NCBI RefSeq assembly: GCF_964355755.1
Contig: NC_092670.1
Span: forward strand, 25,531,795 to 25,595,794
Origin: Antedon mediterranea
Taxonomy: Eukaryota; Echinodermata; Crinoidea; Comatulida; Antedonidae
Length of the DNA: 64,000 bases
Direction: 5' to 3'
Both the position numbers and the translations under genes were made by a program. The notes below the pieces were generated by a model. The model did no database searches. It saw only the letters and a list, made by a program, of their open reading frames with translations, and was not told the DNA's origin. Numbering within the stretch: the first letter of the stretch is position 1; each line of letters begins with the position of its first letter. Below are positions 26,932 to 52,500 of the stretch, in pieces.

Positions 26932-28020
26932 TTAATGTTCTATTTTGACTGTCCTTTTGTTCTATTTAATACTTGTGTTGACTGCATCCTTTGCCAAACC
27001 ATCCTGGCTTTGCCGGTGTTTTAATGTTCTGTTTTCACTGTTCTTGTTCTTTTTGGCCTTCTGGTTTGGTACTTGCATTGACTGCATCCTTTGTCAAACC
27101 ATCCTGGCTTTGCCGGTGTTTTAATGTTTTGTTTTCTCTGTTCTTGTTCTTTTTGGCCTTCTGGTTTGGTACTTGCATTGACTGCATCCTTTGCCAAACC
27201 ATCCTGGCTTTGCCGGTGTTTTAATGTTTTGTTTTCTCTGTTCTTGTTCTTTTTGGCCTTCTGGTTTGGTACTTGCATTGACTGCATCCTTTGCCAAACC
27301 ATCCTGGCTTTGCCGGTGTTTTAATGTTTTGTTTTCTCTGTTCTTGTTCTTTTTGGCCTTCTGGTTTGGTACTTGCATTGACTGCATCCTTTGCCAAACC
27401 ATCCTGGTTTTGCCGGTGTTTTAATGTTCTGTTTTCACTGTTCTTGTTCTTTTTGGCCTTCTGGTTTGGTACTTGCATTGACTGCATCCTTTGCCAAACC
27501 ATCCTGGCTATTTCGGTGTTTTAATGTTCTGTTTTCACTGTTCTTGTTCTTCTTGGCCTTCTGGTTTGGTACTTGCATTGACTGCATCCTTTGCCAAACC
27601 ATCCTGGCTATTTCGGTGTTTTAATGTTCTGTTTTCACTGTTCTTGTTCTTCTTGGCCTTCTGGTTTGGTACTTGCGTTGACTGCATCCTTTGTCAAACC
27701 ATCCTGGCTATTTCGGTGTTTTAATGTTCTGTTTTCACTGTTCTTGTTCTTCTTGGCCTTCTGGTTTGGTACTTGCGTTGACTGCATCCTTTGTCAAACC
27801 ATCCTGGCTTTGCCGGTGTTTTAATGTTCTGTTTTCACTGTTCTTGTTCTTCTTGGCCTTCTGGTTTGGTACTTGCATTGACTGCATCCTTTGCCAAACC
27901 ATCCTGGCTTTGCCGGTGTTTTAATGTTCTGTTTTCACTGTTCTTGTTCTTCTTGGCCTTCTGGTTTGGTACTTGCATTGACTGCATCCTTTGTCAAACC
28001 ATCCTGGCTTTGCCGGTGTT
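26932..28020 (-). repeat. 100-bp tandem array derived from the SIRT7 C-terminal coding end
   Basis: Directly after the SIRT7 stop codon come ten further copies, each exactly 100 bp, of the terminal coding sequence, plus one shortened (~89 bp) degenerate copy at the far end. Every unit encodes on the minus strand [22 protein letters not shown] and then a TAA, i.e. the SIRT7 C-terminus. Because 100 is not a multiple of 3, neighbouring units are in successive frames, which explains the long overlapping ORFs on both strands here. Sequence subtypes (GCTTTGCCGG versus GCTATTTCGG on +) cluster in the array, pointing to local homogenisation. Units are nearly identical, so the expansion or its conversion is recent. 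Confidence 0.95.
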
Positions 28021-31000
28021 TTAATGTTCTGTTTTCTCTGTTCTTGTTCTTTTTGGCCTTCTGGTTTGGTACTTGCGTTGACTGCATCCTTTGCCAAACC
28101 ATCCTGGATTTGCTGGTGTCTTCTTGTTTTCGGTGTCATCTCCTAATGCTCCTCCCTCTTTCTTTAGTTGTAATATTTTTGTGGTGAAAGTTTTCATTTC
28201 TTTTGATTGTAAAGGAGTAGCAATGTTGAACAGTGGGTCTTCTTCTCTGTAAAGTTATTTATAAAAAAGTTTAGTCGGTAATAATAACATTTCCTACTCT
28301 TAATTTATAATTATTACTTTCCCAGTTTTTTAAAGTCCCTGAACATACATTTATAAAATGTATTAGATGTACCTTTTGTATTCATTCAGTTCAAGATCAA
28401 GTCGATTCATCACAATCTTCATTACATCATCACATTTAGCATTGATTTTTAAATCCGCTTTCAGATCTTTAGGAGTCCACTAAAAATAATAATAATTATA
28501 ATTTATATACAAAAGCACTCAACAATGCACAAATAAACTCTTTGGTGCTTTAAATAATGGACATATAGTTAAAACTAGGTACTATTGTAATAAAAATATT
28601 TTATGATCGAATAAAATTGTTTATATTACTGTGAAATGATCAAGAATAGCTGCAGAGGGCATGGGTATGAAATTTGGCAAAAATTACAGGGTAGGATTAC
28701 ATCAACAACAGATTTATCAAAGTCTTTTTTTTACTAAAGTTAGGGAATGGGATTATCTCAGTCGTGTATGGGATTATCTTGGTCGTTTATGGGATTATAT
28801 ATGTTATAATTAGTGGCTTTTATCTCAACAGAAATGAGATAAAAGATCAACCAATTTAGCCTATTACTTCTTACCTGCAAGTTTACTATGTAAAGTTTTG
28901 ATCGCTTCTTTGTGTTTTGGTTTGTGCTCCACAAACATGGATATTTCTTTAAAACCTGCAAAGAAATGTATTGAAAGCCATTAATATTATTAAGAAGTTA
29001 CTTGTAGCAAGTAGCAAGATTGCACATTTTTGGAACTAAAAACACTCATTGTCGGTTGAATCTCTTGAGGCCAATTTACACAGACAAGCGGTAACGGTAA
29101 GCAGAAAATCTTGTAGCTTTTCCTACGTAAAATCTGTATCCACCCTCGGCAGAAACTGCCCGTCTACTTCGCCCTTTGTGTAAATGGTCATAAGGAATAA
29201 CATAGATTTTATATATTTATTTACATTACCGCTCATCTGTGTAAATTGGCCTTTACAGTTGGTTCATCAGTCAAATTTCATAAATACATGACATACTCTG
29301 AGTAAAAATATTTTTCTTTAAAACGAATATTAAACCAAATTGCCAGCTACAAAGTTGCCTGATTATTTGCATCCAAGCTGTAATAAATGAATACCTTTAA
29401 ACTAGAGCCCATACAAAGTATCATGTCAGCTTTGTTGGCGGCTTCTATTGCCCCATGCCAATTCAGAGGCCATTCTAACGTTCCCTTCTCACCAAAATGC
29501 ACAATGGTATCCAGCAAAGGTGATAAACATTTTGTACATAACCTCCCTGTCTTGTGTCTTCTAAAAGACGTCTTTTCGGTTACGTCAAAAAGTCGGATGT
29601 ATTCTTGTTCGTCGTCGCATTCTGAACAAACCTACAGGGGATTAAAAAAGTTTGACAAATTGGAGAAAAAAGTTAGGAAAGACAGTTTCATTTTGTTTAC
29701 TACAATGGTAAGAAAATATAATGTTTTTGGATGAAATTTGATACCTCAATATACATATTCCCATGTAATTCTGAGAGCTGATATTTAGGAACACCACTCC
29801 TACGATGTAAACCATCACAGTTCTGGGAGACAACATGTTTTACCTAGAAAAATAACAATACTTAAATATCATCATCATTTTGGAATTGGTGGCGCCATAT
29901 AAATGTTTGGTTATTATTATTTACCTCTGCCAAGGATCGCGTGTGTTTGTTTGCTTGTTAATGCAAGATCTTTACCAAAATAAAAATAAAAATAGATACA
30001 GTATGTGGTCGAGAACCACTCCTTTCAATTTTGGAGGCAATTAGTATTTTCAAACCTGCTAGTGTTAAAAGATAGGAGAGAATTTTTAAAAGCCGGCGAG
30101 CAGTCTTAAAGTAACAAGTAAACTGAAATTGCATTTTGTCGAAGTACTTGTCCAAAAAAATGTTTGTTTAAGAGACAAGAGTTATAATTTGTGATTTGTA
30201 ATTTTAAAACATAATTTGACTTAATGTACAGGATTTTTGATGAGTTAAAAAAACCTATTTATTTTCAAATTCACCCGTTTGTTTTTGGCATTTCCTGTTC
30301 TATTGTTCGACAACTAAAACTTTTGTTAGTTGAAAGGCTGGTTACATAACTATTACACCAAAATCACATACACGTCATGCTTGTGGTGAATTAGCCTAAA
30401 TCACACACACAAAAAAAATATATATATTTTTTCGGAGAAATCTTATGTAGGAGAATTTTACAGCAGAGGTACTTTATTGCCTTTTTGGTTAATATTAAAA
30501 CAGTACGTTAGAAGATAACTTACAATATCCTGTTGACACAATCTAGCTAGGCTCATATGTGTGAATGTTGGATCAGCATCAGTCAAAGAACTAGACCTGT
30601 AAGGATTTATTTTCACACAAAGTATTTATACTGACTGTATTAATAAACTACATATTGTACTATTGGTGTAAGATAAGGTTTATTCAGGAAGAAATGTTAT
30701 AATAAATGCAGGAGAAATGTTAACACTAAGACCATTGTCTTTATCTATCAACATTATAAAGTTAATGCGACCACTATTAAATTGGATTTTGAATTAAATA
30801 TCTTATAACTGACAACATCTTATTAACTCCATCAATCTTTTCAAAAACCAAAACTTACGTCACAATTTGTCCTTTTTGAAGTAAAGTCCACACCCCATTT
30901 GGACCTCTATAATCTGGTATAGATGCTGCCTAAAATAAAGAAACTAGAATATGTTTAGTTTTCACAAATGCAAGTCTACTGTACTTCCTGTAATACAGAT

Positions 31001-32001
31001 TAGACCATAACAACATTTATGTTGCCCAATTAGTCCACAACTGACCCAAAATTTGGGGGTCAACCTTTGTTTTTGTAATTGTGTATTCTAATTTGTGTTG
31101 GTATAACATATAACATTCTTTATTTATTGCCTTAACATTACAGTACTAAATAACTCACTGTGCTTATTCCAGCACCACTGTATACAACACAGTACTTGGA
31201 TGATTTGATAGCATCTGCAAGTTCCTCTGCTTTTGTAATTATTTCTTCTGGTGAATCTTCTTTCTTTAAAGTAAATCATAAGTAAAATGTTGATACTTAT
31301 TTAAAGATAGTTGTTCCATGGTGGATGCTTATCCTGTCCCCATTCAAAGTCAATAAATGGTAATAAATCATTGATGTAATATAAAAGACAAAAAATTTAA
31401 ACCTCTTCTTTCTTAAGCTTGGCAAGATTTCTACGGACAGCACGTTTTTCTAATTCATTGACTATTAAATCATTCTCTTTGAGGAACTTTTCTTCAGTTT
31501 TTGTTCTTTGAGATTCTTTTTTCTTCATTATTTGCATCACCTACAATATACAATGAGAAAAAGACGTCTGATAAAAGAATCGCAATGTATAAATTAAATC
31601 ACAATTCAGGAATTAAATTTAATAATAAATTAATACTAGCTAGCCAGGCCTATGCCTATATAATTCTATATAAGTCTCTCGAGTCCTACTTAGTCTCTAG
31701 AGACATCTTTTTCTAAAAACTAGTAAGATGGTGGCACAACATCAGAGAATATTATAATATTGAATATATTTATTAATCTTATTAAAGCATTTCATCGAAT
31801 CCAATCCAGGCCCACATGGTCGGGTCTTGCTTCGGGTCTTCGGCCCGGGATGATTCGGCCCTGGGACGATTCGGCCCGGGACAATTTCGGCCCTGGAAAA
31901 TCTCTCCTCAAAACCCACTTTTTAATTTGTAAATTTCTAAATTGTTCTGTCTTTGTAAAGCGCATTGAGGCTTTCAGCATAATGCGCTATATCAAGTACC
32001 A

Positions 32002-32046
<45 letters not shown>

Positions 32047-34318
32047 GTTTTCATGTTTTACAAATAATATACCACTAAACACAGTAAAACATTGCGATGT
32101 AATACTTTGTTGAAACTATCACCGTCCTAGTCGATTGAAATAGTACAGTAGCCCCTACATGTAACGATACATCACTACGACGTGTATATGTTTATATAAT
32201 GTAAAACAATTTGTGAAAACCACCTCTATTCGGGGAAAATCATAAATTCGATTTAATCGTCAATAAATATTAAATTATCTAACTCAACTTAATTAGTAGG
32301 CCTAATGGTTTTCAATTGTTTCCTAGAGCCAATTCATACTTAAGTTGGTTCCTACCCTACCCACCAAAGTTGTTCTGCGTTTAGGGCATGTGATGTACCG
32401 TAGGCCTATCCTCTACTGGTTTTACAACGCTACTCATGCCAGTGAGGGAAGGGTGATGATGTGGGTGGTTTAACTGCAATAATAAAGATTTATACATAAT
32501 ATACGGCGAGAAAACGCTAGCTCTTTATCCGTTTAAAAAAAATTTATATCCAACCTCTGCAGCACAGATTGAAAAAAAAATGGATCGAATTTCTGTTATG
32601 AGTATACAGTACTTGCCTTTACGACGCCTGAGGGAATAGACACTTGTGGAACAGAGATTGGAATGTTCCATTCATCGCAAATCAATACATTTGTATAAAG
32701 TATATTAAATCTATCAAAATAGTATTTTTTAAAGAAAATCGGCCTGTCTTGAACATTATGATACTGTACTCGAGCTGTTCAACCGGTTTTCAGCCATTAA
32801 AAACAATTATCGTAGGAGGAGATAGGAAAATGCGAAGCATCCTCGTATTATCGTCTGCGGGTATTTTTCAAGACGGACATCCATTAGACAGTGTATACCA
32901 CGATCGAAAAACACCCCTATTTGAGGCAAATCGTTGAACCTAAATTCGTTTTAATCGTCAATAACTAATTATCGAACTCAATTTAATTAGTAAACAGGGT
33001 TACATCAGGCGGTTAAAATCAGTACCGAAAGTACGAACCAACTTTATATACCATCGAGTAAACATTCTAGAAATAACGCGCGATTTACCGAATTTTGCCC
33101 TTACGTAAATTTATATATAGAAATGTTTTCCATCAATTTACTAGAATTTATTTTACTTCTGCTGACACTGAATACATCATTTCATGTCTTCCATTTCTTC
33201 TTTTTTATCTTCTTTCCTGTTGTGTTTATTAAAATAAAATCAAATAAAACATTAAATAATGAAGCAACTATTCATTAACTTAAAATCCGTTTCACGAGGA
33301 ACATGTAAAAAATATTTTATTATCGCCATAATATGACCATAACAGCGTCCTCTATATATCGATGCCCTATGAGGCCTCCGTACTTTCATCGGCAGGCCTA
33401 GCGATGATTTTCGCGAAGCTAAGCTGGCGATGGATTTCTGAAGGGTGCTCAATTATTAATTGATTAAAAATAGTTATAAATAAGAAATTATCGATATTTT
33501 ACCATGTTATGCTTGCTGAATGTTGTAGACAACTCGTGAGTAGGTTAGATGAAGTATTGAAACCATTTTGAGTAATTTTAAGGGGTGGGTACGAAACATA
33601 CTATCGAATCTTTATGCAGTATTGCATTAATAATTTACGTACGGTATTGCCGAATCTTAATATCTCATTTACATACTATTGAATCTTTTTACAGTAGGCC
33701 TATTGCATTAATAATTTACGTATGGTATTGCCGAATCTTTATATCTCATTTACATACTATCGAATCTTTCTACAGTATTGCATTATATATCTAAGATTAC
33801 AAAACATTGAACTAGCGGCCGCTTTGGTTGGCGGCCGCTTTGGTTGGCGGCCGCTTCGACTGTAATTCCACGTCGTCCCTATTACACTATCATAACAGGC
33901 ACTTTTGGCGCTGTCGGCGGCCGAGATGGACCTAAGCCGGTACGAAACTGCATTAGCGCCGAAAACTTGATAAAAACCGAAAAAAAAACTGTATAACATT
34001 ATAATTAACATTAACTATCATTGGTTTTGTCAAAATGTGAGCCGAATAGTCCCAGGCCGATTCGTCCTGGAACCGGCCCTATAGCTAGGCCTATGTCATG
34101 GATGGTGCGTGTCACAGAGAAACGGCCACGGCACGACGAGAGGCTAGGCCTAGGCCTACTACTACTACTAGCCAGGCTTATAATTAACAATGTTTTACCT
34201 GTTTTTCTTTTAATTTAGATTCACTCTTTAGTTTAACCCATGATTTAGCAGCATTTTCTGCCGATTTTCGTCTAGGTGGGCGAGTAGTAGAAGAAGACGT
34301 TTGTTCGTTTTTCGACAT
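28021..34318 (-). CDS. SIRT7: NAD-dependent deacylase sirtuin-7
   Basis: Ten exons on the minus strand: 34318-34199, 31540-31403, 31263-31159, 30929-30859, 30596-30524, 29843-29745, 29631-29395, 28955-28875, 28479-28373, 28246-28021. The sum is 1257 bp, 418 residues (human 400), all junctions in phase. A basic, helical N-terminus (about 1-100) precedes the sirtuin core: GAGIS (~116), [17 protein letters not shown] (~176-182), ELHGN with the catalytic His at ~196, zinc-binding Cys pairs C204/C207 and C234/C237, VHFGE, and GSSLKV before the NAD site YIVNLQ. The C-terminus, GWFGKGC followed by Arg/Lys clusters, matches the nucleolar-targeting tail known for SIRT7. Sirtuin-7 is a nucleolar/chromatin NAD-dependent deacylase (H3K18 among its known targets), linked to rRNA transcription. 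Exon 10 is the source of the 100-bp array. Head to head with VPS35L; convergent with ECI1. Confidence 0.95.
31905..32047 (+). repeat. SINE-like 3' module with (ATT)n tail in SIRT7 intron 1
   Basis: GTAAAGCGCATTGAGGCTTT and AATGCGCTATATCAAGTACC (about 31956-32000) followed by (ATT)n at 32002-32047 match the pattern of SINE/LINE 3' ends found in many animals ('AAAGCGC...GCGCTATATAA' then a tandem tail). Just upstream, at 31840-31896, are tandem GGGACGATTCGGCCC-type words. Confidence 0.6.
32048..33595. other. SIRT7 intron 1, no feature supported
   Basis: No gene or clear mobile element seen. The ORF around 32644-32937 (+) is unrecognised and has no support from codon pattern or motif. Confidence 0.45.
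33596..33793 (+). repeat. ~78-bp tandem repeat, 2.5 copies
   Basis: Units starting CATACTATCGAATCTTT and containing GTATTGCATTAATAATTTACG, GGTATTGCCGAATCTT and ATATCTCATTTA begin near 33596, 33672 and 33753. The last is cut short. The middle unit has gained a TAGGCCTA. Confidence 0.82.
33813..33857 (+). repeat. Three 16-bp units with GCGGCCGC
   Basis: GCGGCCGCTTTGGTTG is repeated (third unit GCGGCCGCTTCGACTG), giving three 8-bp GC palindromes within 45 bp in an otherwise AT-rich intron; a related GGCGGCCGAGATGG follows at about 33914. Part of the CGGCC-word family seen elsewhere in the window. Confidence 0.8.
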
Positions 34319-34473
34319 TTAAGCTGATCTCCGTTTCTTCTGTCTTCCTCGAGAATTTGGAATTAATTTGTAAACATCCAACATCGGAAAAAAATAATCA
34401 CAGTCACAAAATTAGCCTCCTTCCCTCTGTCGTCTTGCCAGTTTTTGTAATTAACATACGTACGTCGTCACCG
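34319..34473. promoter_or_regulatory. SIRT7 side of a split bidirectional promoter
   Basis: 155 bp between the SIRT7 start codon and the left end of the fold-back element. With the VPS35L side (40421-40547) it would form a ~275-bp divergent intergenic region. No TATA box was recognised. The placement is inferred from gene order and the exact target duplication, not from promoter motifs. Confidence 0.55.
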
Positions 34474-37400
34474 GAGGTATATTCAGAGCGTCATTTCGAC
34501 GATCGAGCATTCTCTACTTCTACGGAGCGCCATTTATGCCTTTATTTACTTACGAAAATTTCGTAAGTAAATGTAGCTGCTCCAGTGGACCAAATTTAGC
34601 ACTAGTGATATAACATAGAAATAAGTCACTAATTTTAATATTCTTTTCGTATGTTAATACACTGTGCTCAAGTGGACCCAATTTGGCGCCAGTGAGGAGC
34701 ACAGTGATATAAAATAGAAATAATTGTCACTGAATTTTAATATCTTTTCGTATGTTAATACACTGTGCTCAAGTGGACCCAATTTGGAGCCAAGGGAGCA
34801 CAGTGATATAAAATAGAAATAAGTCACTGAATTTTAATATCTTTTCGTATGTTAATACACTGTGCTCAAGTGGACCCAATTTTGGAGCCAGTGGAGCACA
34901 GTGATATAAAATAGAAATAAGTCACTAAATTTTAATATTATCTTTTCGTATGTTAATACACTGTGCTCAAGTGGACACAATTTGGAGCCAGACGAGCACA
35001 GTGATATAAAATAGAAAAAAGTCACTGAATTTTAATATCTTTTCGTATGTTAATACACTGTGCTCAAGTGGACCCAATTTGGCGCCAGTGAGGAGCACAG
35101 TGATATAAAATAGAAATAATTGTCACTGAATTTTAATATCTTTTCGTATGTTAATACACTGTGCTCAAGTGGACCCAATTTGGAGCCAGGGGAGCACAGT
35201 GATATAAAATAGAAATAAGTCACTGAATTTTAATATCTTTTCGTATGTTAATACACTGTGCTCAAGTGGACCCAATTTGGAGCCAGTGGAGCACAGTGAT
35301 ATAAAATAGAAATAAGTCACTAAATTTTAATATCTTTTCGTATGTTAATACACTGTGCTCAAGTGGACACAATTTGGAGCCAGACGAGCACAGTGATATA
35401 AAATAGAAAAAAGTCACTGAATTTTAATATCTTTTCGTATGTTAATACACTCTGCTCAAGTGGACCCAATTTGGAGCCAAGGGAGCACAGTGATATAAAA
35501 TAGAAATAAGTCACTGAATTTTAATATCTTTTCGTATGTTAATACACTGTGCTCAAGTGGACCCAATTTGGAGCCAGTGGAGCACAGTGATATAAAAAAG
35601 AAATATGTCACTAAATTTTAATATCTTTTCGTATGTTAATACACTGTGCTCAAGTGGACACAATTTGGAGCCAGACGAGCACAGTGATATAAAATAGAAA
35701 AAAATCACTGAATTTTAATATCTTTTCGTATGTTAATACACTGTGCTCAAGTGGACCCGATTTGGAGCCAGGGGAGCACAGTGATATAAAATAGAAATAA
35801 GTCACTGAATTTTAATATCTTTTCGTATGTTAATACACTGTGCTCAAGTGGACCCAATTTTGGAGCCAGTGGAGCACAGTGATATAAAATAGAAATAAGT
35901 CACTAAATTTTAATATTATCTTTTCGTATGTTAATACACTGTGCTCAAGTGGACACAATTTGGAGCCAGATGAGCACAGTGATATAAAATAGAAAAAAGT
36001 CACTGAATTTTAATATCTTTTCGTATGTTAATACACTGTGCTCAAGTGGACCCAATTTGGCGCCAGTGAGGAGCACAGTGATATAAAATAGAAATAATTG
36101 TCACTGAATTTTAATATCTTTTCGTATGTTAATACACTGTGCTCAAGTGGACCCAATTTGGAGCCAGGGGAGCACAGTGATATAAAATAGAAATAAGTCA
36201 CTGAATTTTAATATCTTTTCGTATGTTAATACACTGTGCTCAAGTGGACCCAATTTGGAGCCAGTGGAGCACAGTGATATAAAATAGAAATAAGTCACTA
36301 AATTTTAATATCTTTTCGTATGTTAATACACTGTGCTCAAGTGGACACAATTTGGAGCCAGACGAGCACAGTGATATAAAATAGAAAAAAGTCACTGAAT
36401 TTTAATATCTTTTCGTATGTTAATACACTGTGCTCAAGTGGACCCGATTTGGAGCCAGGGGAGCACAGTGATATAAAATAGAAATAAGTCACTGAATTTT
36501 AATATCTTTTCGTATGTTAATACACTATGCTCAAGTGGACCCAATTTTGGAGCCAGTGGAGCACAGTGATATAAAATAGAAATAAGTCACTAAATTTTAA
36601 TATTATCTTTTCGTATGTTAATACACTGTGCTCAAGTGGACACAATTTGGAGCCAGACGAGCACAGTAATATAAAATAGAAAAAAGTCACTGAATTTTAA
36701 TATCTTTTCGTATGTTAATACACTGTGCTCAAGTGGACCCAATTTGGAGCCAGTGGAGCACAGTGATATAAAATAGAAATAAGTCACTAAATTTTAATAT
36801 CTTTTCGTATGTTAATACACTGTGCTCAAGTGGACACAATTTGGAGGCAGGGTAGCACAGTGATATAAAATAGAAAAAAGGCACTGAATTTTAATATCTT
36901 TTCGTATGTTAATACACTGTGCTCAAGTGGACCCAATTTGGAGCCAGTGGAGCACAGTGATATAAAATAGAAAAAAGTCACTGAATTTTAATATCTTTTT
37001 GTATGTTAATACACTGTGCTCAAGTGGACCCAATTTGGCGCCAGGAGAGCACAGTGATATAAAATAGAAATAAGTCATTGAATGTTAATATATTTTTGCA
37101 TGTTAATACACTGTGCTCAAGTGGACCCAATTTGGCGCCAGTGGAGCACAGTGATATAAAATGGAAAAAGTCACTGAATTTTAATATCTTTTCGTATTTA
37201 ATATACACTATGCGATTTGGAGCCAGGGGAGCACTGTGATATAAAATAGAAATAAGTCACTGAATTTTAATATCTTTTCGTATGTTAATACACTGTGCTT
37301 ACGTGGACCTAATTTGGCGCGCGCGCCAGTGAGCACAGTAACATAAAATAGAAAAAAAGTCACTAAATTTTAATATCTTTTCGTATGTTAATACACTGTG

Positions 37401-40400
37401 CTCAAGTGGACCCAATTTGGCACCAATGGGAGCACAGGGAAATAGTCACATACAAAAACATCGAGAAAAAATACTTCTGGAATTAAAAAATATTTCAAAC
37501 TTGGTATATATGTTCGATATCGGTTACTCCATCCGTAAACCAAAAGAAAAAATAGTTACAAGCCACATCAGTGATTTTAATAACGTGCGTTCGCTTAAGA
37601 TAATACTTATGGAAAAACATACAATTCCGACACATATTATGTTAAACTCTAATAATGATTTTGACAACAACAACAAAAAAAAACGGTTAGGAATTCGATT
37701 TTTTCCCTGTAAATTGAGCAACTTAAATTTAAAATATACCAAGAAATATATATTGAAATCAAGGAGTATTTTTTTTTTTCTAAAGAAATGCTCGTATGTT
37801 AATACACTGTGCTCCAGTGGATCCAATTTGGCGCCAGTGGAGCACACGGAAATAGTCACATACAAAAACTTCTAGAAAAAATATTTATCGAATTCAAAAA
37901 TATTTCAAACTTGGTATATAAGTTAAATATCGGTTACTCCATCCGTAATGCAAAAGAAAAATTAGTTTCAAGCCATATCAGTGATTTTAATAAATTGCGT
38001 TTGTCTAAGAAAAATACTTATGAAAGAACATACAATTCCAACACATTTTTTTAAACTTTAGCGATTAAAAAAAAGACATTATGTTAAAAATATGAATTAT
38101 GTAGTAACATATTGAACGTGTAGTAACCTATTGAACGTATACTACCAAATTTCAAATGTGTAGGACAATTATTTTATGACGATCAAAATTTAAAGTTTAA
38201 AAAATGTGTTGGAATTCTATGTTCTATCATAAATATACATTTTAAACGAACGAAAATTACTAAAATCACTGATATGGCTTGAAACTAATTTTTCTTTTGC
38301 ATTACGAATGGAGTAACCGATATTGAACTTATATACCAAGTTTGAAATATTTTTGAAATCCAGAAGTATTTTTTCTTGATGTTTTTGTATGTGACTATTT
38401 CCCTGTGCTCCACTGGCGCCAAATTGGATCCACTGGAGCACAGTGTATTAACATACGAACATTTCTTTTGTAAACAAAAAATACTCCTTAATTTCAATAT
38501 ATATTTCTTGATATATTTTTAATTTAAGTTGCTCAATTTACAGGGAAAAATCGAATTCCTAACCGGTTTTTTTTTTGTTAAAATCATTATTAGAGTTTAA
38601 CATATGTGTCGGAATTGTATGTTTTTTTTCGTAAGTATTATCTTAAGCAAACGCAAGTTATTAAAATCACTGATGTGGCTTGAAACTATTTTTTCTTTTG
38701 GTTTACGGATGGAGTAACCGATATTGAACAAATATACCAAGTTTGAAATATTTTTAAATTCCAGAAGTATTTTTTCTCGATGTTTTTGTATGTGACTATT
38801 TTCCTGTGCTCCCATTGGTGCCAAATTGGGTCCACTTGAGCACAGTGTATTAAAATACGAAAAGATATCATAATTTAGTGACTTTTTTCTATTTTATATC
38901 ACTGTGTGCTCACTGGCACGGCGCGCGCGCCAAATTGGGTCCACGTCGTGAGCACAGGGTATTAACATACGAAAAGATATTAAAATTCAGTGACTTATTT
39001 CTATTTTATATCACTGTGCTCCACTGGCTCCAAATTGGGTCCACTTGAGCACGGTGTATTAACATACGAAAAGATATTAAAATTCAGTGACTTTTTTCTA
39101 TTTTATATCACTGTGCTCCACTGGCTCCAAATTGGGTCCACTTGAGCACGGTGTATTAACATACGAAAAGATATAAAAATTCAGTGACTTTTTTCTATTT
39201 TATATCACTGTGCTCCACTGGCTCCAAATTGGGTCCACTTGAGCACGGTGTATTAACATACGAAAAGATATTAAAATTCAGTGACTTTTTTCTATTTTAT
39301 ATCACTGTGCTCCACTGGCTCCAAATTGGGTCCACTTGAGCACAGTGTATTAACATACGAAAAGATATTAAAATTCAGTGACTTTTTTATATTTTATATC
39401 ACTGTGCTCCTCTGGCTCCAAATTGGGTCCACTTGAGCACAGTGTATTAACATACGAAAAGATATTAAAATTCAGTGACTTATTTATATTTTATATCACT
39501 GTGCTCCACTGGCTCCAAATTGGGTCCACTTGAGCACGGTGTATTAACATACGATCGAAAAGATATTAAAATTCAGTGACTTTTTTCTATTTTATATCAC
39601 TGTGCTCCACTGGCTCCAAATTGGGTCCACTTGAGAACAGTGTATTAACATACGAAAAGATATTAAAATTCAGTGACTTATTTCTATTTTATATCACTGT
39701 GCTCCACTGGCTCCAAATTGGGTCCACTTGAGAACAGTGTATTAACATACGAAAAGATACTAAAAATCAGTGACTTTTTTTCTATTTTATATCACTGTGC
39801 TCCACTGGCTCCAAATTGGGTCCACTTGAGAACAGTGTATTAACATACGAAAAGATATTAAAATTCAGTGACTTTTTTATATTTTATATCACTGTGCTCC
39901 ACTGGCTCCAAATTGGGTCCACTTGAGAACAGTGTATTAACATACGAAAAGATATTAAAATTCAGTGACTTATTTCTATTTTATATCACTCTTCCTGTGC
40001 TCCCCTGGCTCCAAATTGGGTCCACTTGAGCACAGTGTATTAACATACGAAAAGATACTAAAAATCATTGACTTATTTCTATTTTATATCACTGTGCTCT
40101 CCTGGCTCCAAATTGGGTCCACTTGAGCACAGTGTATTAACATACGAAAAGATATTAAAATTCAGTGATTTATTTCTATTACTGTGCTCCTCTGTCTCCA
40201 AATTGGGTCCACTTGAGCACAGTGTATTTACATACGAAAAGATATTAAAATTAGTGACTTATTTCTATTTTATATCACTGTGCTCCACCGGTGCTGAATT
40301 TGGTCCACTGGAGCAGTTACCGTAGTACTATTTCTAATTCGGAAGTAAATAAAGGCATAAATGGCGCTCCGTAGAAGTAGAGAATGCTCGATCGTCGAAA

Positions 40401-40420
40401 TGACGCTCTGAATATACCTC
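34474..40420. mobile_element. 5.95-kb fold-back (FB-like) transposon with satellite arms
   Basis: Terminal inverted repeats start GAGGTATATTCAGAGCG (34474) and are mirrored up to 40420. The ~90-bp outer unique part is nearly perfect. The target duplication is GTCACCG at 34467-34473 and 40421-40427. Inside each end the arm consists of ~97-bp tandem units (TGTGCTCAAGTGGACCCAAT, GGAGCACAGTGATATAAAAT, GTCACTGAATTTTAATATC, TTTTCGTATGTTAATACAC): about 28-29 on the left (34565-37435) and about 15 in inverse on the right (38800-40320). The middle (37435-38800) is a further long inverted repeat around about 38130. No transposase. This matches the known architecture of fold-back elements, whose long inverted repeats are built of short tandem repeats. 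Confidence 0.88.
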
Positions 40421-40547
40421 GTCACCGTACACAAACAATGTGACAACGTCTGGAGCGGGGAGAATTACTTTTTAACTAGGCATAATAGGCTTAGAAAAGG
40501 GCCAGGCCACCAGTTTTTTTTTCTGCTCTCAATACAATTTAGAAAAG
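40421..40547. promoter_or_regulatory. VPS35L side of the split bidirectional promoter
   Basis: 127 bp from the right end of the fold-back element to the VPS35L ATG, containing its presumed 5' UTR. It starts with the target duplication copy GTCACCG. The second half of the same ancestral intergenic region as 34319-34473. Confidence 0.55.
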
Positions 40548-43500
40548 ATGGCAAATTATGAATGGTAAGAATAAAAATTAACATTTATGATAAATTAGCC
40601 TAGTCTATTTGTATTAGTAGCCTAGACGAACTAGGCTAGGCCTATAGCTAAGCCTGGCTATAATGCCTCTCGGCTGGCCTCTATCTATTAGTATTAGTTA
40701 GGGTCACACTCACACAGTGCATATCGGCCGCCAGTCTATTCGGCCGCCGGTTATGGAACGCCTAAAATCATGAAACGCCAAAAAGGACAAAATATGTATT
40801 GTTCATTTCGGCCGCAACAATCGTCAATATTGTTAATGTATGGCACGCCTCAATTATAAAAAATGGTGTTATACATGTGCCTAGGCCTATCGCCTGAAAA
40901 TAGACGTGCGTATTCAAACAGCAAGCAGCAATCAACAAAAACGATCATACTTTTTGATTTGTATAGAGGGGTGTCACGAAACCTAAGACCACGAAAGCTA
41001 AGATTCCCTAAGACCTAAGATCACGAAAGCTAAGACCCAACCAAGAACTAAGATTACAAATTCTAAGATATACTACAGCTTAAAAACAATACTTGTTTAT
41101 CCATACATAATTTTAAACATAGTAGGTTTCATTTATTACCATAAATATAATTAAATACTACCGCAAAACATAGATAAACTCACGTTATTTTCGCCCGTTG
41201 AGTAAATGTATATTTTTTCTTTACAACAAACAAACTTGACGGGTTGTTTGTTGGTATATATTTACTCCATTGTGTTGGTTCAGAGGATGTTTTTCTTTCG
41301 CACCTGCCTTTCTTGTATTTTGACTCCAAATTTGTTAACTAACTTTATCCTGAATACCACACTTTAAAATTAGGACTTATAAGTACTTTCAGAAGGAGAA
41401 ACACATAAAAACAAACTAGATTTAATTCGTCACTATGACGAATTATAGGTTATAAGCATTGATTTAAATAAAGATAATTGATTTTTAAAAGATATATTGA
41501 TTGATTGATTTTCTCAGAATCTTTAATTTATAATATATGATAGGACCTTGCTAACGCGAACACCATAGCCGGTATCACAATCCGATCAAAGATCCCTCTG
41601 GGTATAATGTCATAAACCGCATTTGTTGTTACATAATAATAAAGACATAAAGTAACTTTTTATCTAGATTTCATTATAAATCATGTGTATAATCTATACA
41701 CTAAGAAATAAATTTGAACAAACAATACGGATAATAAAAAAAAAATCTTATTTCGTTTCCCAAGGTGAAACTCGAACTCGGTACCTTGAATGGCATAGAC
41801 ACGAGCACAGACCATCGAGCCATACACAACTGACTAAAAGTTGGAGAAAAATTCCTTCGTGTATTTACTATGCAGTAACCACTTTGGTGCAGATAGATTA
41901 TTACATACCGCAATGGATTATAATGTTTTACTATGATGACATCTTTAAAAATTGAAAAAAATGATGCACTGTCAAACTATATACTTTTAACTTTAATATA
42001 TGAACTTCTTAAGGAAGAAAGTTAATGTTAAAGGGGGATTCTGGGTTTAAAATTGGTTTTAAATATCGTTTATTTATTAAATAAAAAATATTATAACAAT
42101 ATAGACATGTCAGAATGAAGAAGTAATAACGAGGAATTAAAAAAATTAAATTTCATATACATTTTAGGGTAAATTCATGGAAAGTCTGTTTTTCAGCAGC
42201 TTAGGGAAGCTCATTAATATTCATGAGATATTCACAAAATCACGTCACCAGTGGATTCCAAACTCGCGACGTCATGTACGTTGTGTTTGTCAACTAATTT
42301 ACATCTCTCTCCCCTGTCAAACGACGACCACCCGATCATTGTGAAATACATTTTTTGTAGATTTTCTAAGCTAGGCCTAAAGTGTAATAATAACAGTAGT
42401 AGCATATATTTATTTGACATTTAATGAAATACAAAATTTAGTACAGATACGGAGTCATAAAATTATACTACAGTATTTTTATACCTCTATAGTACAGATC
42501 GTGTTATCGGCTTCACGTACAATACTACTCTAGGCCTAGCCTAATAATAATATGGGCGAGAGCCATTCTGACTAGGGATTCCATGCCACGATGGCTACGT
42601 TAAAACAATGGGGCCCATGGGCCTAGCTAGCCTACTACTAGACGATTGGCCCATAAATAACAAAACCCATCCTATCAACCAAACTCCTAAACAATCTAAA
42701 CCTAAAACGTTCTACAAAATCGGCTGTAAATATTGAAGCAAAACAAGGTCCGATCGCCGTCCACACGTATGGTGTCCCGATCGTCTAAGTAGGCCTAAAA
42801 TAAAATAGGCTTAGTTTACTCTCCAAAAAAGCGGATACTCGACTCATGCATCAAGCAAGTAGACCAGGTAGTAGGAAGGAGACCTAGCCGATCCGGCCCA
42901 GGTAAAAATTGAGCTAGCTAGTGTAGTAGACCCTATGCGAATTGATACTACCAGGCCTTTTACTATAGGCTGCACTACACAAATATTCCAACTCTCTCAT
43001 TCGAGCTATATTATCTATACCATTCCGGTAGGTCAAGTCGACCTTCAATCAAATACTGTACATCGTTCATGTTGTGATTATAGACGGGGTATACTCGACC
43101 CGACCAGTTTGGTATTGTTGTATCTGCTTATCACGTGACGATGCCAGGCATGGGCAGCAGAGAGAGCACGTGTATTTTCGTCTCGCTCGATCCTCAGCAG
43201 GAATGTACAGTATACGTTACGCTTCATTGATTTTGATTTTTCCCTAAGTCGGTGCGAAAATCGGCAAACGTAAAGTGCAAACATATCTAATTTTTCACTG
43301 TTTTGATGAATTTTCATAAAAAATTGACTTTATAAATGGGAAGACCGACTAAAATTACATCAGATAAGTATAATTTTACAAAAGTAATTGATATGGTTTA
43401 TGATAACGAGTCGTCGGAAGATGGACCATTTCACGAATTTCCTATTTTGTAACCACAGTGTGATTTTGCCGTAGCTGCACTTGTAATCTGGCCTGATTTC

Positions 43501-46500
43501 ACAGCCTTCGTTCTGCTTCACTGGGCGCTTATATAAATTGAAACTTTTACCGTTCAAGAGACAAACAAATATATTTTACATTTTTTACTATTCATTTTAA
43601 ACCCGGAACCCCCCTTTAAGTTTGTTATTTTGGCCTAAGAAAATGTTATAATTGTCGAAATTAATTTTGTTAAATTTAATATGCCATTAATGATGACTTA
43701 ATCAACTTTTGTTCTTCTAATTTCATAATAAATCATACATATGATACATACACTTCAAGAAAATTAAATAAAAAATAGGTGTTCCCGAGCATTCTAAAGA
43801 TATATATTAATTTTAAAATTTAGCATATTTTCACTATTTTGTTAACTTACACGTGCGTAGCCTGTCATTTTTGACGTGCTCGTATAACGCTGTTTCGCGT
43901 TGAAAAGTGAATAAAATATGATGATATTATAAAAAAAAGGTTATACAACAGTAATCGGACAAAAACAGTGCGCATTAACGTTTGACGCGCAGTGCACGTG
44001 CAAAAATCTGCGCACTCATGGCAATTTTTTAAACGCTTAAAATTGCCTGAAACGTACTCTAATTTCATCGAAAATAAATTCTGACAATTTTCAACATTTT
44101 AAGCGCGCGTACGCATGCGTTATATGCGCTACGCACGTAATTGTATTGCCATATGATGAAATATGACCTGAAATTTATGAGTACCAAATTTTGTTTAAAA
44201 GTGATTCATGCTTGTGAAGATATGATTACAAACGTGATTTCGTTAAATCGCGCGTAGACCGCGTAATGTTTGATTGCGCACCCTGAAAACATAACCACAT
44301 CGATTCCTGGCCATAAGGAATATACTCTGAAAAATTGACTTAGATAGATGAAACTGATATCAAGATAATTCACGGACAAAATAGTGCTAAGGAAAGAATA
44401 AATAAATAAATAAATAAAGATTTTGACAGAATCAAGAGGTTATATGCATGATAATGCATATAACCTAATAAATGAATCCTTTGAATTGATGATTTTACAG
44501 ACGTGTTTCTTTGTATACTGTAACTCCTCCCATTATGCTCAATGTTTTTGTTTCTATGGAGCGCCAAAAGAGCAACAATAATAGTACAAGTATAAAAACA
44601 GAAAGAATTAACGAAACAAAAAAACTTATTATCATGATTTTTAAATTGAAATTTATTTGCGAGTATTTATTTCTTAGTACTAGCATGATTATACTATTAT
44701 CATTACAATTTTAATTTTACATTGTTCCATCAACACTGTAGATGGACTCCACAGAGTTTTCAGCCCTCTATATAATTTTTGCTCTTTTGACGTTCCATAG
44801 AAACAAAAACATTGAACATGGGGTAGGCCTACTGTACTGTTAGGCTAGTCATGCGAAATTCGCAAACAGTATGTGTGCGAGAAAAACGTCTGTAAAATCA
44901 TCAATTTAAAAATGTATTTGTTACTTTTTATTTGATTCTTTTTCATAAAAGCGCTAATTCTAAGGTATGGTGTTCAGAATAAATGTTGGGAGTTAAAATA
45001 CAAGGCAGGTGCGAAAGATAAATATTTGTAATCTTAGTTCTTGGGTCTTAGCTTTCGTGATCTTAGGTCTTAGGGGTCTTAGCTTTCGTGGTCTTAAGTT
45101 TCGTGACACCCTTGTATAGAGTTGCGCTATTTTACTATCATTCGCCGGCTTCTTCCTGAGCCCTACTACTAATAACCATACTTTTAAAACGTCTATAGGC
45201 CTCCTGCACGTGTTTTTGTGAAACGATGTATATAATTTACGTATACTGTACGTCGATACTATAGATTTTAATTTTAAAAATATCTTTTATTTCTTTATTT
45301 ACAATAATCATTTAATGTAAATAATTAAGTAAGTAGTCTCACATAACATCCATACGACGTTCGTAAATCTAAATGTTTAAATATCAGTACCTCTTTGAGA
45401 ATCGTGTCCACCTTTATTATCCATACATTATTCTCACATCTATCATCATTGTACATCATAGACCTACTGTAGGGGTGGTAGATTGATTTATAACGGAATA
45501 TTATCTATATATTTTATTATTATCCTAAACCATGCTCACGTCAGAGTGGCGGATGCAAAAATCATCATCATGCAGGCCCGTAGCCAGGGGGGGTTTTATG
45601 GTTCGGGCGAACCCCCCCCCTTTACAGCGAACCCCCCTTAACCGACTGCGAACCCCCATCCCCGACATGCCCAATACCTCACCCTCATCTCCGAAAATCG
45701 TCCAAATACGTGCCCCACAGTACAAAAAGTTGTTCGTAAATTAAAAAATTCGTAAACTCGTTCGGAATAACTCATACAGTACCTTCTTCCCTGTATGAGC
45801 GTACTTCGAGCGATATAGTCTGTAAAGAGTTGCAAATGAATTGCCGATTTTAAATGTTTGGTCCCTGCATGTAACATGATATTGACGCGTCTCACAGCGA
45901 GCTGGGGGACGAACTATTCGTACAAAGGACACCGCCAGACAACTGCGTACCAATTGTTTAGATCACTGGCAGTCAGGCAGCATGCATAAAGTATATAGCC
46001 TTCCGACATACATCAGTATTTATGTGTGGCTATGAAGTATAATGTATCATAGAGGATTATAGTGAACATTAATATTTTACACTATAATATCTATGGTATC
46101 ATGTACTGTAGTTCACATTATGGCATCCGATTATTTTTTTCTAGACCACCAGCCGATACGTACTCAAATGTATCAATATCACCTATTTACATTGGCATAT
46201 TTAATTTCCTCAACAAATTGCTGTAAATAAATATTATAGATAGAGCTATAATAAAAATTGCATTTGCCTTCACCCAGTGTGCTTTTTTCGGGGCTTCTCC
46301 TAGACGTACGTTCGCATTGAACTTGAACGCAAAACAAAATATCGAGTAAATGATCAAACAATCGGCGGTTCCGCACAGAGCACGCGCATCTAACATACGG
46401 CAACAAATGTTATCGTTTAAATAGTCCACGAGTCCAAGTACGATCGTTTTGCTCATTGGTAGCATGCTGCATGAGAGTGTCTTTTCCGGCCATCTAGGGG

Positions 46501-49500
46501 TGTCATTTAACAAAATTTGCTTCGCCTCAGGCCCCACCCCAGGGGGGTAGGTATGGGGGTGGGGGTGACCCAAATACTTAGTGTGCAAACCCCCCCTTGA
46601 CAGATCCTGGCTACGGCCCTGTCATGCATCAAATTCCTTTATGGTATAAACCTCATTGAGCTGGTATCCACTTGCAGGTATAGAACGAGTTTCGTAATTA
46701 ACTGTGATTAAAAAATACGCAATAGGCGCGTCTACTTGTTTAACTATTAAATTATTATTTATTTTCAAAACCTTAAACAACGGCATGCTAAAAGAACACA
46801 TTACAATTCATTAAAACCTGTAAGATAAAATGGAAACACAAATTATTTATAAATAATGAGATAAATATTTATATTTACTGTACCTAAAAAATATCGATCG
46901 AGGTTTAAAAAAATGTCAAACAGTATTATTAGAAATTCCAATATTCAAAATTAACTAAAAACATAATGAACGTTTTCATTAAAAATGTATCTAATGCGCC
47001 ATATACAAATTAGCGCGACCAAAATAAAACGCGACCGATATCAAGCGTAACTAATAGGATAAAAAGCGTATCTAGCGGCGCTCCATACAAAATACCGGAT
47101 GTTTATTTTATCGCGACCGATTTCAAACACGATCGATTTCAAGCGCGACCGATTTCATCTGACACCATTTACACACGTATATTCAGGCGATAGGCACATG
47201 TATACACCCTTTTTGACAATTAAGGCGTGCCATACGTTATTAACAATATTGACGATTCTGGCGGCCGAAATGAACAATACATATAATAATAAAAAAATAA
47301 TAAACAGTATTTATATAGCGCCACCTAATGAATCACTGACCCCTCTAGGTGCTTTACATTAGACCTTAACTAATGGTAATAAACTATCCCCCGCCGGACA
47401 CCATTCCGGTATTTCTTAGTCAAGGTTTCGGGGATGGAGACAATCAATAATGTGAAAAAAAAATGTAACTAAGCTTAACTATGCTTAACTAAGGTAAAAC
47501 GTATTTTGTCTTTTTTGGCGTTTCATGATTTTGGGCGTTCCATAACCGGCGGCCAAAATGACTGGCGGCCGAAAAGATCAGACACATATGTGCCCTTTTT
47601 GACAATTAAGGCGTGCCATACGTTATTAACAATATTGACGATTCTGGCGGCCGAAATGAACAATACATATAATAATAAAAAAATAATAAACAGTATTTAT
47701 ATAGCGCCTAATGGATCACTGACCTCTCTAGGTGCTTTACATTAGACCTTAACTAATGGTAATAAACTATCCCCCGCCGGACACCATTCCGGTATTTCTT
47801 AGTCGAGGTTTCGGGGATGGAAACAATCAATAATGTAAAAAAAAAATGTAACTAAGCTTAACTATGCTTAACTAAGGTAAAACATATTTTGTCTTTTTTG
47901 CCGTTTCATGATTTTGGGCGTTCCATAACCGGCGGCCGAAATGACTGGCGGCCAAAATGATCAGACACCTATCTAAGACTCCCAGACCGTATATTATTAT
48001 TGATTTTGATCCAAGTCGGCCCTAAACCGTCTCGGCCAAAGTCAAGTCGGCCTCAAGTCAACTCTGCCTCAAGTCAACTCTGCCTCAAGTCAACTCGGCC
48101 TCAAGTCAACTCGGCCTCACGTCAACTCGGGCAAAAAATAATCGGTCAACTCGGCCCTGTTAAAGTATGGAATGCAAAAGGTGCAAAGGAAGGGGATTGA
48201 TAAAATAATATTTCTTCACATTTTAAATATTAATATTTAGACAATAATACATTTAGCAAAAAAAATAAGAAGGATTTCACCATCTTTCCTTTATTTACGT
48301 TTAATAAAATTAACAAACAATTGATTAATAAGCTAGCATTCATACTATTATTAATGATTACAATATGAACATTTGGAAAATAAATAGGAACACATTGTAG
48401 ACCCAATAATGATGATGCACGTACGTGGGCGCGTACAGTGGCGTATCCAGTATCCCCTGATTTCGTGTCCGTCGGCACACGTCATCGCGTCTGTCGGCAA
48501 ACAAAGGGAAAAAAATAAAGTTAGGCAAATAAGAATAAACTATTATTCTGACAATAATTGAACTGTAAACATAATTTTTTTTTTTTTTTTTTTTTTTATT
48601 CAGTATACACAGAGGCGCCTTACAAGATGGAACCACCTTAGCTTCAAGGCGCCTCAGATTAACAAATACAACATTTTAAAACAACTAACAGAAACATCAA
48701 TCAAATCTTCCAGAATTAACAAGAAATTGTTGTACATAATAAAATAATAAAGCATTTTCACAATTCGAAAGAAGATCGGAACCAAAAATAAAAATTTCAC
48801 TTAAAAATGTAAAATTAAATGTTAAAGAAAAATCCTTGGCTAAGATATCCTCAATAATTGAGTTAGCGCTTACAAGTAGAATATCTCTTTGTGTATTATA
48901 ATTAGGGCAGTAACATAAGAAATGAAGCGGATTCTCAACATTAAAGCCACAAGTACAATTTGGATTGTCCCGAAGTCCATGATGATGTAAGAATAAATGC
49001 GAATTGAGACAGCTGAAACCAAGTCGGATTCTAGTGTGAATTTGGTTAATCTTCTTATCACCTGTATCATAATAAGAACGTTTTTTTGTTTTAAACAAAT
49101 TGGATTTCAGTAGCAATTTTTTAAACTCAACAAGAGATGAGGAATTTTTTATTTCATTATTTAACTCATTCCAATGTGTTATAATAGATGGGACAATAAA
49201 TGATATGATGTGGTCTTACAAAATGGAATTATTATATTTCGGATGTTACGCAAGTTATAAACTTCAATATTCTCAGAAAAATTAAATAAGGAGTAAAGAT
49301 ACATTGGTGTTAACTTATGAATAATTTTAAAAAACAGTATTAGGTGAAGAAATTGTCTACGTTTTTTCAATGATAACCAGCCTAATTCTTGTCTTAATGC
49401 ATTATGACTTGTAATTTGTATGTTTCCACGCACCAGTACATATTCTACCTGCAGAAATCTGGATATTTTCTAGTTCATCACTTAATTTATCTGGAATATT

Positions 49501-52500
49501 ACACCAAACAGGAGCTGCATATTCCATTAATGGTCTAACGTGTGATATGTAAATGTGACAGAGAGCCTGTCGAGGTAGAATATGTTTGACACGACGTAGC
49601 ATATTTAAAGATAAAGCGAATCCCACTTGAGTTTTGCATTAAGCATTACACCAAGATGCCTATGATCATTTACAAATTGTAGATTTACATTATTGAAATT
49701 TAAACTAACATAGTTATCTAAATGTTTACGTGTAAACAGTATAGCTTTCGTTTTGTTAGCATTGAATGTTATTTTCCATTTTTTTGCCCAATTATAAATG
49801 CCATTTAATTTTTGTTCTGAAATATTACGATCTGTATCATATCACGAAGTATCATCTGCATATAAACTAATATTAGATTTGATATTATCAACCATATCAT
49901 TTATGAATACAATAAATAAAAATGGACCCAAAACAGATCCTTGGGGTACTCCTGCTGTAATGGTCACCCAAGGACTGGTAGTTCCTTCAATAATAACACG
50001 TTGCTCACGTGAGTTTAAGTAACTTTGGAACCATTTTAGAAGAGTGCCATTAATTCCATATTGATTTAATTTGTATATAATCCCATTATGCCAAACTTTA
50101 TCGAAGGCTTTGGAAATATCCAAAAATACCGACGTACTTCTTTCCTTAAATCTAAAGCTCTATTAAATGTATCTATAAGATAAAGAAGTTGATACGTTGT
50201 CGAGTCACCTGGTGTAAAACCAGATTGGAATTGAGGAAGTTTATTATCCACAAAGTATTTATATACTATATCAAAAACTGCACGCTCAAAAATTTTTGCA
50301 AAGTTGGAAAGTATGGATATAGGGCGGTAGTTCTCAATAAGGGATTTGTTGCCTTTTTTATGCAGAGGAATGACATTTGATTTTTTCCATTCCACAGGAA
50401 AATATCCTTGGCTTATGCAGAAGTTATAAAGCTTTGTCAAATGGGGTGCAATAATTTCAGCAGATTCTTTTAGTATGATACTGTGAATTTCATCAGGTCC
50501 CATCGCCTTGTTTTTATCCAGCATAGTTAATAATTTCATGATCTCATCAACAGATAATTTTAGAGTTGAGAGTCTCGATGCAGTTCTATATGTGAAGTCC
50601 GAAGGAAAATCATCATGATTAGGAATAAACGATTGAGATTTAAAATAATTGTTAAAAGCTTTAACTTTCTCACTATTTAAAGTTAGGACATCATCGTTTA
50701 ATTTGATTGGAGGAATCTTATAATATTGTTTGGAATTACAAACTGAATTTATGGTAGACCACCAAGTTTTTGAATCACAGTTTTTATTCATTAATAAATC
50801 AAATTGTTTATCCAAAAAAGTTTGTTTAGCTTTTCTTATTGCTTTAACAACTTTTGCGCGAATTTTCTTAAAATCGTCCAGTTTGAAACTTGTATTTCAC
50901 ACCTTATCACATCTGACAAGAGATCACTACAAATATGGGAATTAACTAAGTGTATAGAATTAGATATGTAAAGAGCACATCCTCCGCCATGGCGGTTTCT
51001 ATCATTTCTAATAGGTTCTTGATAACCGTCTAGTAAAATGTCATGGTTCAAGATAGTTTGATCTAGCCATGTTTCTGTTAAAGCAATAATATCATAGTTA
51101 TTTTAATTTGCTAGGTGTTGAATTTCAGCTAGTTTACCTGGAACGATTAGACTACGTATGTTAATATGGCAAACTGTAAACTGTTCCGAACCAGGATTTG
51201 GATGTATATCGCCGCACATTAAAAGCATGCACATTAGAATACTTAATTTGATAGCAACATTATTACGCCCCAAATTTGTGATAAATAAATTATCCATTAT
51301 CAGTAAAAAAAATAAGTAAAGTACTCACTTTAAAAACGCTAGCACATATGAGAACACTTAGCCAAACGAACATAGTAAACATTAAAATAAAAACAAGAGA
51401 ACACGTTTTTGCTATCTAAAATTAACAAATAATGGTCATATTCCGTCGGTAAGAAACGAACTGTTAATGACACCGCACAGTTTTAACGTTCTTAATGTTC
51501 AGCAATCAGTCGTTCAAAATCATTTTCATTCTTGATATGCTTGGTTTTTTCTTCACCTTTACACAGGGCCCATATCTTGCATCTGTTAGTCCAGGCACGT
51601 TGAACTCCATCATGGTGTCTTACCTTCCAAAAAAGATTGAAATTTGCTTTTGTTAAAGATGTATTGTCCCTTTGACTAATTCCAAAAAAATAAAAAATAA
51701 TAGATTTCGAAAAAAGGTGGGTCATTTTGAAGTATCATAATAATTATTAACTATCACCAAAAATTTTTCGAAAAAAAAAAAATTTAACTGAAATACAGAC
51801 GGTTTTTTGTTTAAAAAATTACTTTGACTTCCAGTCAAAGTTTTCAATCAAAACATATCCCATAATGAAACGCGCCTGTTTGGCTACTCTGTATGCATAA
51901 TCATAAAACTTCCTCATGATCTGTGTGAAAATACCTTCTTAACCGTGACAAGTTGTAAACAATCCTAATTTAGCATATGCATAATGCGTACTCATGGTTT
52001 GAAATCTTTGTTTACTTTCGCTCATGACGATTTTCCAGATGAAATGTAATCAAACTAATTTACCTGTTAATTACGTAAACTTGTTGTTTTTGGCTCAAAT
52101 TTTCGACTTAAAGTGAATAACTTTAATATTAATTTGATATGGCCACTTTAAATTTAGAATATTTTGACCTTCATTTTTTTGTGTTTCAAGGGACAATACA
52201 TCTTTAAGTCTTCCGAGATATAAACCGGCATACCCTTCAGTTTGGATTTGGCTGCAAACACATTGTTACGGGTCCTGATTGAATTGAACCGAACAATTAT
52301 TGGCCTAGGCTTGTCAGTAATAGGACCTATTCGATGAGATACTTCAATATCGTCGGACTTGAAAGTGATACCCAGTTTGTCGCGAATAACCTCCGCCACC
52401 AAATCGTCAGTTGACTTTGTCGAGTCCTGTAAACTGTAGAATCTAAGGTTATTACGACGTGAATATTGTTCTATATAGTCCACTCTGGTTTCTATATTAC

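Follow-up and report, generated by a model that had tools for sequence, protein, structure and literature searches.

The genes for SIRT7 and VPS35L lie head to head in the genome of the crinoid Antedon mediterranea, and the repeat-rich DNA between their start codons raises the question of how about 6 kb came to separate two genes that would otherwise begin very close to each other, and what became of the promoter or promoters presumably located there. The window analysed here is a stretch of 64,000 nucleotides (G000:C1:25531795-25595794) from a 354-Mb genome of 18 contigs.

The SIRT7/VPS35L interval and the inserted element

SIRT7 on the minus strand and VPS35L on the plus strand, both of them housekeeping genes, diverge from ATG codons at 34318 and 40548, respectively. 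The 10 exons of SIRT7, separated by GT-AG introns, join into a complete, uninterrupted frame of 419 codons (419 aa) that aligns to human SIRT7, and a Pfam SIR2 match supports the assignment independently. The short first coding exon of VPS35L ends within a tryptophan codon, which is completed at the exon-2 acceptor, and its product was compared with the start of human VPS35L, MAVFPW-HSRNRNYK. Furthermore, a later exon matches PDB chains of VPS35L (7e-15). The head-to-head arrangement proposed in the initial annotation is thus well supported by the exon chains and the human comparison. The same annotation regarded both genes as intact, which holds for SIRT7; VPS35L looks intact within the window, but the gene runs past the window edge, so that its integrity is seen in part only.

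Subtracting the inserted element and one GTCACCG from the ATG-to-ATG spacing leaves 275 bp as the presumed empty site, and the sequence agrees with the earlier estimate both of this spacing and of the remnants left on either side, which measure at most 155 and 127 bp with 5' untranslated sequence included. The interval had been read as holding a single fold-back element of 5947 bp bounded by GTCACCG, and the identical 78-bp ends, the arrays and the exact duplication bear this reading out (Table 1). The rightmost base of the element is C, so that the 8-mer CGTCACCG occurs at both junctions.

Table 1. Positions of the inserted element, its surroundings and the P-superfamily copies (window coordinates unless a contig is given)
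Feature	Position	Strand	Description
SIRT7 coding exon 1	34199..34318	-	ATG 34318; phase 0 into exon 2, 31540-31403; gene model aligned to human SIRT7
SIRT7-side intergenic remnant	34319..34473	-	155 bp including one GTCACCG; single copy in genome
Left 7-bp target duplication	34467..34473	.	GTCACCG, from the sequence
Fold-back element	34474..40420	.	5947 bp; ends, arrays, duplication, genome-wide family
Left terminal inverted repeat	34474..34551	+	78 bp, identical to right one
Left arm	34598..37444	+	97-bp units x 29.1 (TRF); higher-order period 978 bp (autocorrelation)
Middle domain	37445..38929	.	Imperfect inverted repeat (palindrome); 98.5% identical to copy L061
Right arm	38930..40315	-	97-bp units x 14.2 (TRF); inverted relative to left arm
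Right terminal inverted repeat	40343..40420	-	78 bp, identical to left one
Right 7-bp target duplication	40421..40427	.	GTCACCG, from the sequence
VPS35L-side intergenic remnant	40421..40547	+	127 bp including one GTCACCG; single copy in genome
VPS35L coding exon 1	40548..40564	+	MANYEW, split codon; then ~15.5-kb intron; exon 2 from ~56063
P-superfamily element L072	C1:2820600-2827000		
P-superfamily element L073	C3:37947000-37953400		

With its long inverted terminal arms built of tandem repeats, the element has the architecture of a fold-back transposon. The opposing arms are complementary at 94–97% over up to 606 nt, and four stretches folded as single-stranded DNA gave z-scores of -2.4 to -4.6, which makes hairpin formation by the 97-bp units plausible. 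The middle domain contains no coding frame of transposase type, and an Rfam search of positions 30000-45000 returned no match. Near-identical units repeated about 29 and about 14 times, with a longer period of 978 bp superimposed, are difficult to assemble correctly, and their copy number may be inexact; however, the ends, the 7-bp duplications and the array architecture recur in independent copies across many contigs, so that an origin of the arms in tandem repeats wrongly collapsed or expanded during assembly is extremely unlikely.

A fold-back family with 7-bp target duplications

A search with the outermost 30 bases of the element, allowing up to three mismatches, yielded 153 matches in the genome (66 forward and 87 reverse), as compared with none for the reversed control. 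Twenty two-ended copies, the window copy among them, were examined, and 13 carry a target duplication of the same length, 7 bp, at independent insertions; it is exact in 11 and has one mismatch in the other two (L057, L068). From the number of ends against the control and the frequency of the duplication, it is clear that the insertion is not a chance arrangement, and the element represents a new family of an already known kind, the fold-back DNA transposons. The remaining two-ended copies have lost the 7-bp duplication or never had one, which is not surprising where copies have been rearranged or are chimeric; chimeric copies without matching duplications have also been described for Galileo.

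An empty site was found for L061, since the paralogous target in the flank of L058 is uninterrupted and contains ACGGAG(T/G) once. A match to the window that seemed to span the empty site of L065 was discarded, its alignment being gapped at the junction. L061 is also the nearest sibling found for the window copy, and the identity of their middle domains indicates that the family was mobile fairly recently.

Several further features of the family were observed. Copies L016, L018, L024, L025, L026, L031 and L048 form a subfamily with another shared interior of about 1 kb, 88–95% identical. The flank cgcagtttc is common to L027, L028 and L053 (C1:8.14-8.45 Mb) and suggests duplicated segments, and seven fold-back ends in G000:C6:20245422-20395918, which lie 20–32 kb apart with the same single mismatch and strand, suggest segmental amplification. 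At L040 (C2:32875274) and L080 (C5:2934076), remnants of fold-back ends adjoin tandem coding arrays of C2H2 zinc fingers.

Among known systems, the TU elements of sea urchins come from a marine invertebrate as well and have a modular fold-back build with repeats in the arms; compared by description only, they differ in having an 8-bp target duplication instead of 7 bp. A target duplication of about 9 bp is usual for Mutator elements, as against the 7 bp found here. The Tm1 Mutator/Foldback elements of root-knot nematodes are alike in their fold-back architecture and unlike in being assigned to Mutator (PMC3169594). Tetris from Drosophila virilis likewise has tandem repeats within the inverted arms of a fold-back element and is apparently non-autonomous (PMC4079207), although its repeat unit, compared by description only, is about 220 bp rather than 97 bp long. 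Galileo, a P-superfamily element of Drosophila, combines long inverted arms containing internal tandem repeats with a 7-bp duplication, and many of its two-arm copies lack a transposase gene and vary in arm length (PMC3573991, PMC3688188); moreover, its tandem repeats contain transposase-binding sites (PMC3688188). In contrast, the arms reported for Galileo are about 0.3–1.2 kb long and those of the present family up to about 2.9 kb, and here no transposase was found with fold-back ends, which are themselves unrelated to those of the P-type element in the same genome.

Source of the transposase

No transposase frame was found in the 20 two-ended copies, and the family looks non-autonomous. Long frames in two-ended copies other than that of the window were rejected as transposase, since they correspond to LINE-type or retrotransposon insertions. 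A pattern search for other elements with the same terminal 12 bases gave 12 places, as compared with 8 in the control. Three of these places were followed up as possible autonomous partners and rejected, L078 being a diverged family member, L079 an apparent chance match and L080 a remnant beside a zinc-finger array.

The genome contains at least 35 matches to PF21787, the P-type transposase domain. None of these 35 lies near any of the fold-back ends listed, about 100 of the 153, and GAGGTATAT is absent within 6 kb of four further P-type loci. Two of the P-type loci, L072 and L073, are copies of a P-superfamily element of 5.55 kb that are 99.5% identical to each other and possess an intact frame of 794 aa with both PF21787 and PF21788; a third locus among the PF21787 matches equals them in score and frame length. 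The element has 47-bp ends (CTGAGACAACAATC...) and is flanked by the 7-bp duplications CGGACAC and AGCTAGC. It was rejected as the source of the fold-back ends, to which its own ends are unrelated. The near-identity of the two copies together with their 7-bp duplications makes it very likely that a P-superfamily enzyme with a 7-bp stagger was recently active in this genome. Further frames for a P-type transposase, 617 and 621 aa long, occur at L074 and L075; their N-terminus is weakly zf-AD-like, under the Pfam cut-off.

Duplications of 7 or 8 bp are characteristic of the P superfamily, and 7 bp was found both in the fold-back family and in the P element of the same genome. Because this P element and Galileo agree in the 7-bp duplication, mobilisation by a P-type enzyme is the leading interpretation, and most plausibly the fold-back family would be moved by a P-superfamily transposase in a Galileo-like manner. 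Outside Drosophila, the present elements add a fold-back family whose 7-bp duplication is clear, beside near-identical P-superfamily copies in one genome, and this co-occurrence bears on the source of transposase for such families.

The divided interval and its putative promoters

In the presumed empty site the two divergent genes would start within 275 bp, a spacing in the range of bidirectional promoters, which makes it plausible that the interval was a shared promoter now split by the element. In mammals, transposable elements have been reported next to bidirectional promoters, in connection with new antisense gene pairs and not with the splitting of an existing pair (PMC2777200). A sense-direction TATA box, as defined by a simple consensus, is present in neither remnant, and Inr-like matches, uninformative alone, occur at several places. 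Alternatively, the two genes may never have shared a promoter, having separate, closely spaced ones, in which case nothing functional was split. This would agree with the remnants' G+C content of 39–41%, without an obvious island, and with TTTTTTTTTCTGCTCTCAATACAATTTAG directly upstream of the VPS35L ATG, which is splice-acceptor-like, so that an upstream exon is possible and exon 1 and the start site could be elsewhere; however, 275 bp offer little room for two independent promoters, barring upstream noncoding exons, and we regard this alternative as rather unlikely.

As for the choice of site, P elements of Drosophila favour promoter regions and are highly prevalent there (PMC7776569). In 39 one-sided flanks of the present family, the 100 bp next to the ends have a G+C content of 0.389, as compared with 0.338 at 700–1400 bp (paired Wilcoxon p = 0.006 over the 39 sites, a single uncorrected comparison). 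The G+C-richer flanks are compatible with insertion into promoter-like DNA, a likeness in composition that is not a demonstration of promoters as such. A palindromic target consensus was not detected in 13 sites (p = 0.2).

The explanation that we consider fairly probable as a whole is transposition into an open divergent promoter, with each remnant starting its own gene. A non-autonomous fold-back transposon would have entered the 275-bp interval by cut-and-paste with a 7-bp staggered cut, the insertion and the duplication being evident from the anatomy of the locus. A transposase acting in trans and cutting with a 7-bp stagger would have moved it, the most plausible candidate being, as for Galileo, an enzyme of the P superfamily, and the site was presumably accessible because the chromatin at the two divergent promoters was open. 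The SIRT7 and VPS35L remnants most likely each retain a start site and a minimal core promoter; both genes would persist, and coupling through shared elements, if there was any, would be interrupted by 6 kb. The repeat arms, by analogy with Galileo, most likely represent multiple transposase-binding sites serving transposition and not host gene control.

The initial annotation had suggested that the element itself might give promoter activity through the motif GATATAAAAT, thought to be present in every unit. Most units do have it, but not all: the left arm, with about 29 units, contains 25 exact copies, and the right arm, with about 14, contains 13. Similarly, TATAAAA is contained in most units, 27 times on the plus strand of the left arm and 15 times on the minus strand of the right arm, which at first sight would allow a TATA-like motif in the units to serve one or both genes. 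However, TATAAAA points inward, and thus away from SIRT7 and VPS35L, in all 27 matches of the left arm and in 15 of the 16 of the right arm; these motifs are therefore poorly positioned for transcription of the two genes, and a supply of promoter activity by the element is disfavoured as improbable. Divergent or cryptic initiation may occur at the element ends.

Transposition that left two working remnants is compatible with the insertion being a segregating, possibly harmful allele, with many chromosomes empty. The perfect target duplication and the closely similar middle domain of L061 point to a recent insertion, whereas the assembly contains the occupied form only, with no second allele or empty copy of the locus and with both flanks single-copy; segregation of the insertion may be tentatively entertained, at somewhat less than even chances. 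Should an empty 275-bp allele survive in the population or in a sister species, it would provide a natural test of whether close divergent genes need a joint promoter, since the two alleles would share genes and flanks and differ by the 6 kb inserted between the halves. A further reading, which is very unlikely, is that the fold-back family belongs to the P superfamily and prefers open divergent promoters, and that it has separated a conserved SIRT7/VPS35L regulatory pair in this lineage, the hairpin arrays being maintained by selection as a boundary or alternative promoter.

Other repeats were observed in the window. Downstream of SIRT7, a minisatellite with a 100-bp unit (26970-28119; about 11.5 copies, 97% matches) repeats the 3' coding end of the gene (...TEKTEH, stop), and the long first intron of VPS35L contains remnants of LINE-type reverse transcriptase (48697-52824). 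A further tandem array, with a period of 183/273 bp, occupies positions 22608-23948 in a stretch with strong G skew.
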